NCBI RefSeq assembly: GCF_902364365.1
Contig: NZ_CABJDN010000003.1
Span: forward strand, 186,001-250,000
Source: Bacteroides intestinalis
GTDB lineage: Bacteria > Bacteroidota > Bacteroidia > Bacteroidales > Bacteroidaceae
Direction: 5' to 3'
Length of the DNA: 64,000 bases
In this document: piece by piece, positions 39,869 through 47,127 of the stretch
Position numbering within the stretch: the stretch's first letter is position 1
Layout of the letters: each line of letters starts with the position of its first letter
Position numbers and translations under genes: made by a program
The notes under the pieces: model-generated
What the model was told of the DNA's origin: nothing
The model's database searches: none
Seen by the model: only the letters and a program-made list of their open reading frames with translations

Positions 39869-40324
39869 TTACTCCCACGCCTCCGCTTTTACTTCAAAAC
39901 AAGGACACTCTTTCGTCCTTTCCCAAGGATCTACAATGCCGTTGTAGTTTTTATCAGGACTCAGATCCCGGTGTCCCACCACCCGCGCCCCCGGATAACT
40001 CTGCAACAGACTGGCTACCAGTCGGTGCATCGCCTCTTTCTGTCGTAAGGTCCGCGTATCGGCGGGACGTCCGTTCACATCCAGCCCACCCTCATAACAC
40101 ACTCCGAGACTGTTTGCATTATATCCCCGGGCATGCGCCCCAGGCACATCTTCCTGCCTCATCAGCTCCACCTGTCCCGACTTTCGGATATAATAGTGAT
40201 ACCCCCACGATGAAAAGCCCCTGTAACGGTGCGCCGTATCCACGTCCTGCGCACTGAAATCACTGTCCGCCCTTGTGGCGGAACAGTGAATAATAATCAG
40301 ATCAATCTTTCTCATAACCGGCAT
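39869..40324 (-). CDS. N-acetylmuramoyl-L-alanine amidase (Amidase_2, T7-lysozyme type)
   Basis: A 151-residue zinc amidase. LIIIHCSATR (first His ligand), SWGYHYYIRKSG, GVCYEGGLD and VVGHRDLSPDKNYNGI (second His region) and CPCFE mark the Amidase_2/T7 lysozyme fold that cuts the bond between muramic acid and the stem peptide. It lacks a signal peptide, as phage endolysins do. The start may be the third Met-proximal ATG (MRKIDLI, 40315). It is third in the HU-like/smalltalk/amidase unit and starts 5 bp after the smalltalk stop. Confidence 0.9.
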   Translation of the reverse strand: MPVMRKIDLIIIHCSATRADSDFSAQDVDTAHRYRGFSSWGYHYYIRKSGQVELMRQEDVPGAHARGYNANSLGVCYEGGLDVNGRPADTRTLRQKEAMHRLVASLLQSYPGARVVGHRDLSPDKNYNGIVDPWERTKECPCFEVKAEAWE

Positions 40325-40329
40325 ACCAT

Positions 40330-40425
40330 TTATATCGTCATAGCATGTGCACTCAACGCCCCCAATAAGGCAGAAGCCATCGCAATAACAACTTTCAATA
40401 CTGTGTCCCAGGTAATCTTCTTCAT
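40330..40425 (-). CDS. Smalltalk-type short membrane peptide
   Basis: A 31-residue peptide, starting MKKITWDTVLKVV and ending SAHAMTI, with one membrane segment (about residues 9-28). Bacteroides genomes carry such peptides, named smalltalk in automatic annotation, always between an HU-like gene and an amidase gene. Position and size suggest a holin or an amidase-release factor, but there is no proof. The gene is too short for usual gene callers. Confidence 0.85.
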   Translation of the reverse strand: MKKITWDTVLKVVIAMASALLGALSAHAMTI

Positions 40426-40461
40426 AACGATCAGTTTTTAGTGATTTAATATTTAGTGATT

Positions 40462-40920
40462 CTATCCCAACGGATTCTCTTCAATCCCTCCATCAGCAGA
40501 ACCACCCGACTCGGACGACTGCATACTTCGCGTCACCACACGCGTGTACGCCATCGTCTTTGTGATGTCCGTCAACCCCTTGCTGGGGCGGAAGTTGATA
40601 TGTGATTTCTTAATCATGGATATTGTGAAATCTTCCGCCTTCTCCGCGCCTGTACTGCTGACGCCCATCTGCAAAGACCCCAAATCTCCCAACCTGACGA
40701 TACGCCCCGCTTTCAGAGCACGTTTCGCCTCATAGATGATGCCCGCCAGTGCGGCACGCACATCAGTTTCCGTACAAGTAGTACGTCCGGTTATCGCTTC
40801 GCACATTTCGTCGAAGTCCAACTCGCCCGAAGCTTGCGCCAGGGCATAATACTTGGCGGGCTCACTCTTCTTAGAAGGATTTTTACGAGCCACCACTGAA
40901 TAATTCATGGATGTTGCCAT
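40462..40920 (-). CDS. HU-like DNA-binding protein (HU-HIG type)
   Basis: A protein of about 152 residues starting MATSMNYSVVARKNP. It has the HU-type core (YYALAQASGELDFDEMCEAITGRTTCTETDVRAALAGI, then GRIVRLGDLGSLQMGVSS) with an extended C-terminus rich in Ser, Gly and Glu (residues about 128-152). It belongs to the HU-HIG group restricted to Bacteroidetes. It heads the HU-like/smalltalk/amidase unit, divergent from DUF4248 and VapE. A -7 element, TATATTTG, lies 46 bp upstream. Confidence 0.88.
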   Translation of the reverse strand: MATSMNYSVVARKNPSKKSEPAKYYALAQASGELDFDEMCEAITGRTTCTETDVRAALAGIIYEAKRALKAGRIVRLGDLGSLQMGVSSTGAEKAEDFTISMIKKSHINFRPSKGLTDITKTMAYTRVVTRSMQSSESGGSADGGIEENPLG

Positions 40921-40965
40921 ATTGATTAAAATTTTAAAGTGAATGTAAATCACCGATCTACACTG

Positions 40966-40973
40966 CAAATATA
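40966..40973 (-). promoter_or_regulatory. -7 element of the HU-like unit
   Basis: TATATTTG on the minus strand fits TAnnTTTG. A divergent transcript for DUF4248/VapE must start within the same 186-bp gap. Confidence 0.5.
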
Positions 40974-41106
40974 CCGGATAACAGACATCCCTCAGTCGTC
41001 AATGAAGCTTTACGAATATTATTGAAATAAACACGTCTCAAAACTTTCACCAACCGTTTATTTTCAGTAAATTTACATCACATTAAGAATCAATAAATAC
41101 AAGAAA

Positions 41107-41337
41107 ATGAAAGAAGAAAAAGGCACCTTCGTAGTGCGCAGTTACACAAAATCGGAACTGGCTCATCTTTACAATCCGCAACTAACCCTTAAAAACGCCA
41201 CCCAAGTACTTCGCCGCTGGATACTCCACAACGCCGAACTGCATGCAGAACTGATTCATTTGGGTTATCAGGACCGGAACCACATTTTCACTCCCCGCCA
41301 GGTAGAAGTCATAGTCCACTATTTGGGCGAACCTTAA
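41107..41337 (+). CDS. DUF4248 protein
   Basis: A 76-residue protein of the DUF4248 family (SYTKSELAHLYNPQLTLKNATQVLRRWI, then FTPRQVEVIVHYLG). It looks like a small winged-helix or excisionase-type protein and could regulate the cassette, although the role is unknown. It stands 81 bp before the VapE gene on the same strand and divergent from the HU-like gene; this arrangement recurs in Bacteroides. Confidence 0.85.
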   Translation: MKEEKGTFVVRSYTKSELAHLYNPQLTLKNATQVLRRWILHNAELHAELIHLGYQDRNHIFTPRQVEVIVHYLGEP

Positions 41338-41418
41338 ACTTAACTTTACGTGAAAAGCCAAAAGTTATTCCCTGTTATCGGACACATATGTTAATTTGCA
41401 ACAAAATTTATACAAACA

Positions 41419-43530
41419 ATGAAGTATTCATATTATCAAAACAAAAAACAACCGCCCTGCGCCGAAGTAACCGACGAAGAAGTGGCCAACCTCATCCGCC
41501 ACGATGAAAAACTGGCACACATGACCCTTGACATCCGACAGCATATCACTGCCAATGACATCGCAACCGCTGATTTCATCAAAGGAGAACTTCCCTCCGT
41601 CACCTTCTCCGCCCGCTTCACCGGTGGACGCCGATACGACAAACTGACTGAGTATAACGGGGAAATCGTCCTCGACCTTGACAAGAAATCCCCCGAAGAA
41701 CTGACACGCATCTCAAAAGCAGTCACCGGAAATCCGCATACCCACATCAGCTTTACCAGTCCGAAGGGCAACGGTTACAAACTGACCACAATCACCAGTC
41801 TGCCCGACGGTACCCTGCCGCAATCTCCCGAAGAAGTCCGCAACTACCATGCACATGCCTATGACCAGGTTGCCGCACTCTACGAAGAGCTTTGCCGGAC
41901 GGACATCGACGAATCGGGCAAAGACATGACGCGCATCTGCTATCTGCCTCACGATGAGAATGTCTATCTGAACCCTAATCCGCAGGTTCTCATCGTCGAC
42001 CTCAACCGCCCTCTCAGGGAAAAGAAAAAGAAGACTCCCGGACGGAAAAAGTCTTCGGGAGCAACACCAGACACACCTCCGTGCAAAAAACCTTCGGACA
42101 ACATCTCTTATCCCCAAAGCGAAAGCCGCTCCCTGCTCGCCCTCCTTCTTTACTATCACGACCACAAAAACAAGTACGAAGAAGGCAACCGCAACAACTA
42201 TCTGTTCCGGCTAACCTGCACATACAACGCTTACGGCATCCCCAAAGAAGAAGTCGCCCCTTTCCTGCGCCTCAACTTCACCGACATACCGCCCGAAGAG
42301 ATTGACTCCCTGACGGACAGTGCTTATCAGCATACGGACGAATTTAACACACGTAAATTGAGAACCTCGCAATGGAACTTCCTCCGCATCGGACAGTATA
42401 TCAACAATCATTACGAAACGCGCTACAACCAAATGAAGCACCGCATGGAATGTCGAAAAAAGGGTGAAGATGATTTCGTCATGCTGGATGACATGGTAAG
42501 CAACAGCATCTGGATGGAACTGAACGAAGCCGGTTATCCTTGCAGCGTCAAGAACATGGAGAACCTGATCTACTCCGATTTCAGTATTTCCTACCACCCC
42601 ATCCGCGAGTATATGAACCATCTGCCCCAATGGGACGGCATCGACCACATCGGCCGTCTTGCCGAAAGTGTCCATACCATTCCTGCCCAGAGAGAGTTCT
42701 GGCTGAAAGGTTTCAGGCATTTTCTGGTAGGTATGGTAGCCGCCGCCACGCAAGAAGAAGTAGTGAACCACCTCTGCCTCCTGCTATGCAGCAAGCAGAA
42801 TCTGGGAAAAACGACTTTCATCAACAAAATTCTGTCAGATGACTTACGAACCGATTATCTCAGCACCGGCATCATCTCCGCCGGAAACAAGGACGACCTC
42901 TCCCGCATGGCGGAATTTATGCTCATCAACTTCGATGAGTTCGAAGGCATGACGGGGCACGAACTCAGTCTGCTGAAGGACCTTATCACCCGGAAGTTTA
43001 TCAGCATCCGCCTGCCTTATGCCCGCCACACCCTGAACCTGCCCCACTGGGCATCCTTTGCCGGTACCTGCAACTATCCGCAAGTGTTGTACGATCCTAC
43101 CGGCAACCGCCGCTTCCTCTGCTACGAAATCGAAAAGATAGACCGCTACGAAATCGACTACCCACAGCTCTACGCCCAAATCAAGCATCTGCTGGACACC
43201 GGCTACCGCTACTGGTTCGAAGCCGACGAAAATGATGAGATAGAGCGCAACAACAAGCCTTTCATCTTTCAGACTCCCGAAGAAGAAATGCTGTTGACGC
43301 ATTTCCGCAAACCGGAGCGCTTCGAAAGTTTCAAGTATATGACGGTAAGTGAAATAGCGGAAGAAATCAGAAACAGAACCGGCTATCAATATAACCATGC
43401 CGGAAAAATCCTGTTAGGGAAGATTCTCACCAAATATGGCTTCCAGTATGTTACAAGCAAAAATATGAGGCGCTACGAGGTAATACTTCTGGAGGTGGAG
43501 AGTGTGAAGAATAATCAGCTGTATCAGTGA
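41419..43530 (+). CDS. Primase-helicase-like protein (BT4734 N-terminal domain plus VapE/VirE)
   Basis: A 703-residue protein. The N-terminal part (about 35-200: FSARFTGGRRYDKLTEYNGEIVLDLD, FTSPKGNGYKL, DMTRICYLPHDENVYLNP) is the BT4734/BF3469 domain related to primase-polymerase folds. The C-terminal half (about 370-640) is the VirE/VapE superfamily-3-like ATPase: Walker A in LLCSKQNLGKTTFINKIL, Walker B in FMLINFDEFEG, and the sensor region GTCNYPQVLYDPTGNRRFLCY. VapE-type proteins replicate mobile islands, satellites and prophages. Here no integrase, capsid or terminase gene lies nearby. Confidence 0.88.
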   Translation: MKYSYYQNKKQPPCAEVTDEEVANLIRHDEKLAHMTLDIRQHITANDIATADFIKGELPSVTFSARFTGGRRYDKLTEYNGEIVLDLDKKSPEELTRISKAVTGNPHTHISFTSPKGNGYKLTTITSLPDGTLPQSPEEVRNYHAHAYDQVAALYEELCRTDIDESGKDMTRICYLPHDENVYLNPNPQVLIVDLNRPLREKKKKTPGRKKSSGATPDTPPCKKPSDNISYPQSESRSLLALLLYYHDHKNKYEEGNRNNYLFRLTCTYNAYGIPKEEVAPFLRLNFTDIPPEEIDSLTDSAYQHTDEFNTRKLRTSQWNFLRIGQYINNHYETRYNQMKHRMECRKKGEDDFVMLDDMVSNSIWMELNEAGYPCSVKNMENLIYSDFSISYHPIREYMNHLPQWDGIDHIGRLAESVHTIPAQREFWLKGFRHFLVGMVAAATQEEVVNHLCLLLCSKQNLGKTTFINKILSDDLRTDYLSTGIISAGNKDDLSRMAEFMLINFDEFEGMTGHELSLLKDLITRKFISIRLPYARHTLNLPHWASFAGTCNYPQVLYDPTGNRRFLCYEIEKIDRYEIDYPQLYAQIKHLLDTGYRYWFEADENDEIERNNKPFIFQTPEEEMLLTHFRKPERFESFKYMTVSEIAEEIRNRTGYQYNHAGKILLGKILTKYGFQYVTSKNMRRYEVILLEVESVKNNQLYQ

Positions 43531-43610: not shown

Positions 43611-43637
43611 AAGCTATAAAAGAAAAAATGTGTGTTT

Positions 43638-45206
43638 ATGGAATATAATACATCATTACGCAAGCTTCCTATCGGAATACAAACTTTTGCGGATATCCGC
43701 CAAGGTAATTATCTATATGTGGATAAGACTGCGCTTGTTTGGCTTATTGCCAATACAGGCAAGCCTTATTTCCTGAGCCGCCCCCGCCGCTTCGGCAAGA
43801 GCCTGCTCCTGTCCACTTTCGAGGCTTACTTCGAAGGTAAGAAAGAACTCTTTGAAGGCCTTGCCATTGAAAAGATGGAGACGGAATGGAAAAAATATCC
43901 GGTACTGCATCTGGATTTGAATGCCAAAAAGTATGAAACTCCAGCCGACCTGATAGCAATGCTCAACCAAACATTGGAAAAATGGGAAATTGTATACGGA
44001 AATGAAAAAAAGGATCGTAGCCCCGAAGAACGCTTTGCATATGTCATAGAACGTGCCTATGAACAGGCAGGTTGTGGTGTAGTGGTCTTAGTGGACGAGT
44101 ACGACAAACCCCTGTTGCAAGCCCTCGATAATGATGCCCTACTGGAAGATTATCGCAAAACTCTAAAAGCTTTTTACGGGGTACTGAAAAGTGCCGACCG
44201 CTACCTGCGTTTTGCTTTCCTTACGGGAGTTACTAAATTCTCGCAAGTCAGTGTGTTCAGCGATCTGAATCAACTGAATGACATCAGCCTGGATTATTCT
44301 TATGCCACAGTATGCGGCATCACCCGGACAGAATTGGTTGAAACCTTTACGCCCGAAATAGAAGAATTCGGCAGGGTTAACAAGCTTTCTGCTGAAGAAA
44401 CTGTCGATAAAATGGCCCGTCAGTACGATGGCTATCACTTTCATCCGAAAGGAGACGGAGTCTTTAATCCCTTCAGCGTGCTGAATGCTTTCAGTAAACG
44501 GGAATTAGGAGATTACTGGTTTCAGACAGGAACTCCGACTTTTCTGGTTGAAATGCTCCGTAAGTCAGAATATGACCTTCGTATCTTACTTGATGGCATC
44601 GAAGCCCCGGCTTCTATGTTCTCCGAATATCGTGTAGAAGCTAATAATCCGATTCCGTTGATTTATCAGAGTGGTTATCTTACTATAAAGGATTACAATG
44701 AGCGTTTTCGGAATTATCTGTTGGAATTTCCTAATGATGAAGTTCGCTATGGTTTCATGAGTTTTCTTGTACCATTTTATACCAGCGTAAATAATGATGA
44801 TCAGGGCTTTTATATCGGCCAGTTTGTAGAAGAGTTGGAAAGAGGCGATTACAATGCCTTCTTCACCCGCCTACAAGCCTTCTTTGCCGATTTCCCCTAT
44901 CAACTGAACGCGAAGACCGAACGTCATTACCAGGTCGTTTTCTATTTGGTTTTCAAACTGATGGGACAGTTCACCCAAGCAGAAGTTGAAAGTGCCACAG
45001 GACGTGCAGATGCCGTAGTAAAAACCCCTAAATACATTTACGTCTTCGAATTCAAACTGAACGGTACAGCCGAAGAAGCCCTGCAACAGATTGAAGACAA
45101 AGGTTACCTGATTCCTTATCAGGCTGACGGACGTGAAGTGATAAAACTTGGAGTAGAGTTCAGCGCGGAAGAGCGTAATATCAGCCGTTGGCTAAATGTG
45201 ATGTAA
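43638..45206 (+). CDS. AAA-ATPase-like / PD-(D/E)XK nuclease (DUF1703) protein
   Basis: A protein of about 522 residues. The N-terminal AAA-ATPase_like domain (about 5-290) shows DIRQGNYLYVDKTALVWLI, an atypical Walker A, SRPRRFGKSLLLST, and Walker B VVVLVDEYDKPLL. The C-terminal DUF1703 (PDDEXK_9, about 350-520) ends YIYVFEFKLNGTAEEALQQI, the E-x-K core of the nuclease. Such proteins are widespread in Bacteroides, many copies per genome; defence or signalling roles are suspected only. ATG 43638 is preferred over the in-frame GTG at 43632. Confidence 0.88.
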   Translation: MEYNTSLRKLPIGIQTFADIRQGNYLYVDKTALVWLIANTGKPYFLSRPRRFGKSLLLSTFEAYFEGKKELFEGLAIEKMETEWKKYPVLHLDLNAKKYETPADLIAMLNQTLEKWEIVYGNEKKDRSPEERFAYVIERAYEQAGCGVVVLVDEYDKPLLQALDNDALLEDYRKTLKAFYGVLKSADRYLRFAFLTGVTKFSQVSVFSDLNQLNDISLDYSYATVCGITRTELVETFTPEIEEFGRVNKLSAEETVDKMARQYDGYHFHPKGDGVFNPFSVLNAFSKRELGDYWFQTGTPTFLVEMLRKSEYDLRILLDGIEAPASMFSEYRVEANNPIPLIYQSGYLTIKDYNERFRNYLLEFPNDEVRYGFMSFLVPFYTSVNNDDQGFYIGQFVEELERGDYNAFFTRLQAFFADFPYQLNAKTERHYQVVFYLVFKLMGQFTQAEVESATGRADAVVKTPKYIYVFEFKLNGTAEEALQQIEDKGYLIPYQADGREVIKLGVEFSAEERNISRWLNVM

Positions 45207-47069: not shown

Positions 47070-47127
47070 GGTGACACAGAATAAAGGGTCAGAAAGTACT
47101 CTATTTGCATCCGATATGAAACAATCT

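Follow-up and report, generated by a model that had tools for sequence, protein, structure and literature searches.

What are five genes of phage- or satellite-like character doing together in the chromosome of Bacteroides intestinalis? In the window, i.e. the whole stretch of 64,000 nucleotides that was analysed (positions 186,001 to 250,000 of contig NZ_CABJDN010000003.1, assembly GCF_902364365.1), they form a cassette of two divergent arms, the leftward one running from an HU-HIG gene through a smalltalk gene to a T7-lysozyme-like amidase gene and the rightward one from a DUF4248 gene to a BT4734/VapE primase-helicase gene. The families have names but, to our knowledge, no known joint function. 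Our main result concerns the HU proteins, which carry a C-terminal tail specific to the genome; this is a new finding, absent from an earlier, sequence-only reading of the same DNA. We tentatively favour the view that the cassette represents a type of locus which Bacteroidales carry in many copies, that it has been passed on vertically in the chromosome, and that its phage- or satellite-like parts serve the host, i.e. a conditional lysis module with a replication arm and a tail-docked HU protein. Its features are as follows.

39869..40324, minus strand: N-acetylmuramoyl-L-alanine amidase of T7-lysozyme type, 151 amino acids (PF01510, 5.4e-17; phrog_822)
40330..40425, minus strand: smalltalk peptide, 31 amino acids, single hydrophobic segment (NF033879, 2.9e-13; DUF6486, 1.6e-10)
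40462..40920, minus strand: HU-HIG DNA-binding protein, 152 amino acids counted from ATG (PF18291, 6.8e-31)
40462..40482, minus strand: codons of the C-terminal peptide EENPLG plus stop, after a Gly/Ser-rich acidic linker
40921..41106, no strand: divergent intergenic region, 186 bases, with promoter-like TATATTTG / TATCTTTG on the HU side
41107..41337, plus strand: DUF4248 protein, 76 amino acids, predicted four-helix domain (PF14053, 1.3e-26)
41419..43530, plus strand: BT4734/VapE primase-helicase, 703 amino acids (PF05272, 4.3e-30; PF08800 (BT4734-like_N), 2.4e-32; PriCT_1, 1.9e-6)

Open reading frames and profile searches show all five genes open in these orientations, which bears out the gene set named by the sequence-only reading, while the range that it gave (40330 to 43530) misses the amidase gene at 39869 to 40324. 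The HU protein scored 107.4 bits against the curated PF18291 cut-off of 26.2, and smalltalk 49.4 bits against the NF033879 cut-off of 24.7. The HU start codon is supported by a 152-amino-acid homolog (P0036), and the AlphaFold2 model of the DUF4248 protein has a mean pLDDT of 91.

A genome-specific tail on the HU proteins

The C-terminus of the HU copies consists of a Gly-rich linker and a short peptide, and in most genomes read this peptide varies little or not at all from copy to copy. This was established on 43 HU frames from loci centred on DUF4248 genes, selected regardless of tail: EAPDPTV ends 9/9 HU proteins in genome G002, ETPDPAA 10/11 in G013 (the eleventh lacks the Gly-rich linker), ENPLG or DDPLG 6/6 in G001 (B. 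cellulosilyticus, the nearest of the genomes compared) and QEGSPL 4/4 in G008. When frames were compared in pairs, excluding the window and the linker-less G013 frame, the last five residues were identical in 98 of 119 pairs within genomes, or 98 of 104 (mean HU identity 0.29) after removal of G004 with its linker-less HU proteins, vs 20 of 701 pairs between genomes. Paralogous HU domains within a genome are only around 26–29 % identical, and 88 of the 92 within-genome pairs below 35 % HU identity share their last five residues. Between genomes, by comparison, pairs with at least 70 % HU identity (mean 0.88) matched once in ten, and not at all (0/9, mean 0.87) without the G010/G013 and G001/G012 pairs. 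The observed tail statistic was not reached in any of 2000 label shuffles. A larger set of 63, in which selection was biased since many loci had been fetched via the tail, gave 0/23 matches among high-identity between-genome pairs (mean HU identity 0.81).

Pattern searches across eight genomes gave a similar picture, i.e.: ETPDPAA was found 19 times in G013, five times in G010 and not in the other six, EAPDPTV 13 times in G002 and not in the other seven, the NPLG type 15 times in G001, six in G012 and once in G004 (a match in a frame of 10 residues that we attribute to chance), and the QEGSPL type seven times, confined to G008, with zero matches for all four reversed patterns. The extra copies fetched from outside the DUF4248 loci (G001, G002, G010, G012 and G013) were HU-type save for a DUF6266 protein, a DUF4469 protein, 152-amino-acid proteins without a Pfam match and two short fragments. 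In the window, a degenerate EENPLG pattern has a single match, and none in 100 shuffles. Elsewhere, S(E/D)SP(D/S)EI ends 5/6 HU proteins fetched from P. distasonis (a seventh matching record lies outside this count), EAPDPAE ends 2/2 in B. finegoldii (one linker-less HU left out), and 0/2 are tagged in P. massiliensis.

Two broader tail patterns, run against 80 genomes of the genus, matched 19 and 23 genomes, with three or more matches in 15 and 14, respectively, and no genome in both of these latter sets; reversed controls gave 2 and 4 matches. Tails in this survey were read among the matches listed, in putative HU genes: they were uniform in G027 (16), G048 (19), G065 (14), G070 (9), G034 (10) and G025 (8), nearly so in G086 (12/13) and G041 (9/11), with EEDPLG in 16/21 in G082, while G089 alternates N and D, and G037, G046, G060, G063 and G072 are mixed in their last residues. 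In 40 of the 80 genomes neither broader pattern matched.

Could the tail be uniform through gene conversion or recent duplication of the paralogs, without a partner reading it? Tail codon identity does lie above the codon-usage expectation in G013 (0.58 vs 0.35) and somewhat in G002 (0.47 vs 0.36), but it is at expectation in G001 (0.42 vs 0.41; 12 of 15 tails used), the HU domains of the same pairs have diverged as described, and no conservation was seen past the HU stop codon, which makes homogenisation very improbable. Since synonymous codons in the tail vary, selection appears to act on the peptide, with some shared descent in G013, as the simplest reading. A largely uniform, slowly drifting end peptide behind a flexible linker suggests a docking signal, through which HU probably binds a single putative partner that the copies have in common and that evolves along with the tag.

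The docking tails of single-stranded DNA-binding proteins (SSBs) likewise consist of a DNA-binding domain, a flexible linker and an acidic, proline-containing end peptide. The HU proteins share all three, whereas the SSB encoded in the window ends in DDLPF and the HU peptide differs from this and varies between species. With the HU-HIG family (PF18291), whose founding paper is reportedly Burroughs et al. 2017, they have in common an HU domain, a C-terminal part rich in Gly and many copies per Bacteroides genome; the difference lies in the genome-specific terminal peptide, of which no description was found in the literature searched, which did not cover that founding paper. It is quite possible, if short of probable, that we are looking at a lineage-specific C-terminal address code, in which as many as some 30 genes of a genome, HU-type in most copies read and with a few unrelated domains besides, share a peptide behind a Gly-rich linker and are recruited by one putative hub. 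The code would change between species jointly in all copies, and the cassettes of HU, smalltalk and hydrolase would be hub clients in programmed lysis. The tail makes the question testable, as a protein binding EENPLG or EAPDPTV would reveal the hub of the system.

Two further observations concern tail carriers. In L086 (7079-7537) and L050 (G012), a 152-amino-acid protein with an HU-type tail is followed by a smalltalk match; the L086 protein, which was scanned, has no Pfam match. The B. thetaiotaomicron HU P0097 and 11 further clusters end in GNNELE, and P0097 is apparently frameshifted in the Gly-rich linker relative to P0101, so that the tail may be subject to slippage or phase variation.

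A multi-copy locus type with exchangeable parts

DUF4248 genes were found in 12 of the 21 genomes searched, with up to 12 matches per genome. For the 54 matches listed, every locus was fetched, giving 50 stretches (51 including the window), of which 43 with full flanks, i.e. 42 from other Bacteroides genomes and the window, were analysed, eight loci on short contigs being omitted. An HU gene was present in 38, an amidase in 32, smalltalk in 20 and a replication enzyme in 36 (VapE in 24, DnaB with an initiator-like protein in eight, a toprim primase in four), and in 25 of the 38 loci with HU the nearest copy was adjacent and divergent to DUF4248. HU-HIG matches number 11–41 per genome (seven genomes); by our own arithmetic, even 41 in 7.0 Mb (G013) would place one in only around 9 % of random 16-kb stretches. 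The proposal of the sequence-only reading that the set recurs in Bacteroides was thus confirmed, and random scattering of the families is refuted by these counts.

Both functional slots accept substitutes. That for replication may be filled by VapE, by a BT4734 primase with DUF3987, by DnaB with an initiator-like protein, or by DnaB_C, toprim or CHC2 primase, and the lytic slot by the amidase, a D-Ala-D-Ala carboxypeptidase-family hydrolase, a glucosaminidase or GH108; the membrane peptides are swapped between loci, too. Loci of the same kind lie beside pfl and beside glycosyltransferase and LTA-synthase genes in B. finegoldii, and P. distasonis also carries one; in the named records of these two species the amidase slot can hold the carboxypeptidase-family hydrolase or the glucosaminidase. 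Phage modules typically swap like for like, and such exchange here argues that one slot stands for replication and the other for opening of the wall. At L037 (G002) and L039 (G013), two common flanking genes are 93–99 % identical while HU is 54 % and DUF4248 56 % identical, which suggests allelic replacement at one site. A published iron-depletion table gives 2.6–8.3-fold values for BT4735-38, including an amidase beside pfl (PMC10434189), and in another report a DUF4248 gene of P. gingivalis sits between queG and a lyase gene (PMC6231650).

Such a repertoire of diverse copies would also be expected of anti-phage abortive infection, with one arm sensing foreign replication and the peptide and amidase killing the cell. 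Up to 12 DUF4248 matches in one genome agree with this, as do the alleles diverging between conserved flanks at L037/L039 and the presence of a tail-bearing gene within 40 kb of 16 of the 31 UpxY-type NusG genes vs 4.6 expected (six presumed housekeeping NusG excluded; the expectation uses rounded genome sizes and ignores contig ends), although no UpxY-type NusG gene was seen beside the window's own cassette. The HU expansion of Bacteroidota has reportedly been predicted to recognise invasive DNA (Burroughs et al. 2017 are said to have proposed this). Nevertheless, we consider a defence system unlikely, as among the five cassette proteins the PADLOC models match VapE alone, on primase models (PrimPol and RTasVirE-PriCT2), and synteny as stable as that described below is less usual for defence genes.

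The chromosomal site and the question of mobility

Synteny of the locus extends to B. cellulosilyticus (where the HU part reads N in the sequence used) and B. oleiciplenus, i.e. to three species including the window, with neighbouring genes named from sequence as his genes. Between the window and B. oleiciplenus, dN/dS is 0.10 for VapE, 0.13 for DUF4248, 0.09 for HU, 0.06 for the amidase and 0.03 for smalltalk (the last based on 31 codons, with synonymous change saturated); all five genes are under purifying selection. An AAA-ATPase-like/PDDEXK_9 gene (43632-45206) adjoins VapE and is present in B. cellulosilyticus. It has no match at the locus in B. oleiciplenus, which is again homologous to the window from position 47122, and the right edge of the cassette therefore lies near 43530. 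The window cassette is a maintained, vertically inherited chromosomal locus and not a recent insertion.

The sequence-only reading had seen either a domesticated phage satellite or a replication-and-lysis module, with a satellite-type VapE protein with a primase-like domain and lacking integrase, capsid and terminase. The nature of the replication protein was confirmed (PF05272, PF08800 and 7PDS matches), as was the lack of those three genes, none of which is encoded by the seven genes between 38.2 and 45.2 kb whose products were scanned. What also stands is a set that combines parts of replication and lysis types and swaps them for equivalents, whereas a mobile satellite at this site is not supported, given the synteny in three species, the dN/dS values of 0.03–0.13 and the lack of integrase, tRNA and iterons.

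A domesticated or active satellite, whose primase-helicase would amplify the locus on helper arrival and whose lysis arm would release it, the integrase acting in trans or having been lost, still has points in its favour, i.e. the VapE-type protein, the phage-like module exchange, the frequent occurrence of amidase kin on viral contigs (of 600 candidate stretches, at least 583) and the location of some cassettes inside predicted proviruses. Besides the conserved site and purifying selection, however, no structural genes were found at the locus, ARAGORN found no tRNA in the whole window, and no att-like flanking repeats were seen at the locus. By the features of PICI-like satellites, a primase/VapE-type replication protein is present and an own integrase with att sites is not. 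When 2.9 million viral contigs were scanned with patterns, no close relative could be confirmed for either the window HU or DUF4248; more distant HU (9/80) and DUF4248 (8/80) copies in IMG/VR entries fetched by the amidase are taken as putative host flank of predicted proviruses. Overall, we regard a satellite as quite unlikely. As in the satellite VapE/VirE modules and BT4734-like primases described in Kazlauskas et al. 2018 (PMC5862659), a primase domain is fused to a VapE-type helicase; unlike those modules, the window locus has no integrase, packaging or interference genes and occupies a conserved chromosomal site.

The putative lysis and replication arms

The closest solved relative of the amidase is T7 lysozyme (1LBA, 4e-24), which together with the phrog_822 match (1.1e-50) places it among endolysin-type hydrolases; H13, H118, K138 and C140 are invariant in 25 aligned homologs, and no N-terminal signal sequence was seen on inspection by eye. 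A small membrane peptide adjoining a T7-type amidase recalls phage holin-endolysin cassettes, with the differences that no phage structural genes adjoin the window cassette and that smalltalk, whose hydrophobic part is a single short segment, matches no PHROG family at 1e-3. In B. cellulosilyticus (L076:6573-13237), a tagged HU, smalltalk and a GH108/PG_binding_3 hydrolase precede Pvc16_N, two sheath proteins and a gp19 tube, which we read as a contractile-injection operon. Release of contractile-injection systems is expected to need lysis, and because an HU-smalltalk-hydrolase trio heads such an operon, a lysis role is plausible, as is replication plus lysis for the cassette.

Smalltalk is tied to the tail: 42 of 47 matches from six genomes (two of them under the curated cut-off) follow a tail-bearing gene, 37 being found downstream of an exact tail match at a distance of up to 1.6 kb and five behind variant tails (two in G010, one in G008, two in G001). 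The other five lack a preceding tail-bearing gene; one of these is in G002 and four are in G012, including one at a contig end. In G004, the seventh genome searched, no smalltalk match was found, and its six HU proteins in DUF4248 loci are those without a linker.

On the conditional-lysis reading, phage- or satellite-like parts would have been retained in service of the host, and the order of HU, membrane peptide and hydrolase without export signal would make up a regulated cell-opening module: smalltalk may permeabilise the inner membrane and so give the amidase access to the wall, the DUF4248 and primase-helicase arm may unwind and prime DNA, and the linker and C-terminal peptide of HU may dock to one cellular partner common to the tagged proteins of that genome. 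The likeliest use would be to lyse or permeabilise part of the population upon foreign or stalled replication. While the gene content, the linkage, the exchange of modules, the synteny, the purifying selection and the largely uniform tail were demonstrated, membrane opening, docking, trigger and purpose are here what we infer. If lysis is indeed the function, bacteria that dominate the gut would have several modules for opening their own cells in the chromosome, some of them next to capsule loci, which would matter for phage ecology and for the release of DNA and vesicles.

Peptide and hydrolase could instead release the tagged HU without killing, in the manner of holin-endolysin export, e.g. 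to bind extracellular DNA. HU, peptide and hydrolase do share one transcription-direction unit, and the tag on DUF6266, DUF4469 and the 152-amino-acid family is cargo-signal-like, but tagged HU genes also occur without adjoining peptide or hydrolase, and we find export improbable.

Several observations weigh against conditional lysis with a docked HU. The arms are separable, since 11 of the 43 loci have no amidase, 23 no smalltalk match and 7 no recognised replication enzyme. The tail is not merely a partner signal for smalltalk, as G013 has 19 tail-bearing and seven smalltalk genes. Origin-like iterons or iteron-like repeats were looked for at the locus, and none were seen. Finally, smalltalk could be secreted or lipidated instead, given the lipobox-like Cys ends in some species: in L203-L206 (G012) and in L194 and L196 (P. 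distasonis) such a Cys has 1–3 residues behind it, resembling a minimal lipoprotein.

In the replication arm, the 703-amino-acid protein comprises a primase domain (residues 55–183), PriCT_1 (251–305), a VapE-like ATPase (401–613) and DUF3874 (619–686), its closest solved structure being 7PDS, 'Similar to D. nodosus vapE' (2e-20). D86, D88 and D164 are invariant and K464 is almost so in ten aligned VapE-slot proteins, which on our own reading are putative primase and Walker motifs. The divergent region shows a mean column identity of 69 % with four homologous loci (aligned stretch, coding edges included), and its TATATTTG / TATCTTTG elements are presumably a promoter of the Bacteroides -7 type. 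One metagenomic protein (P0107) is an in-frame fusion of this HU with the C-terminal part of the amidase, which a deletion spanning the peptide gene has probably produced.

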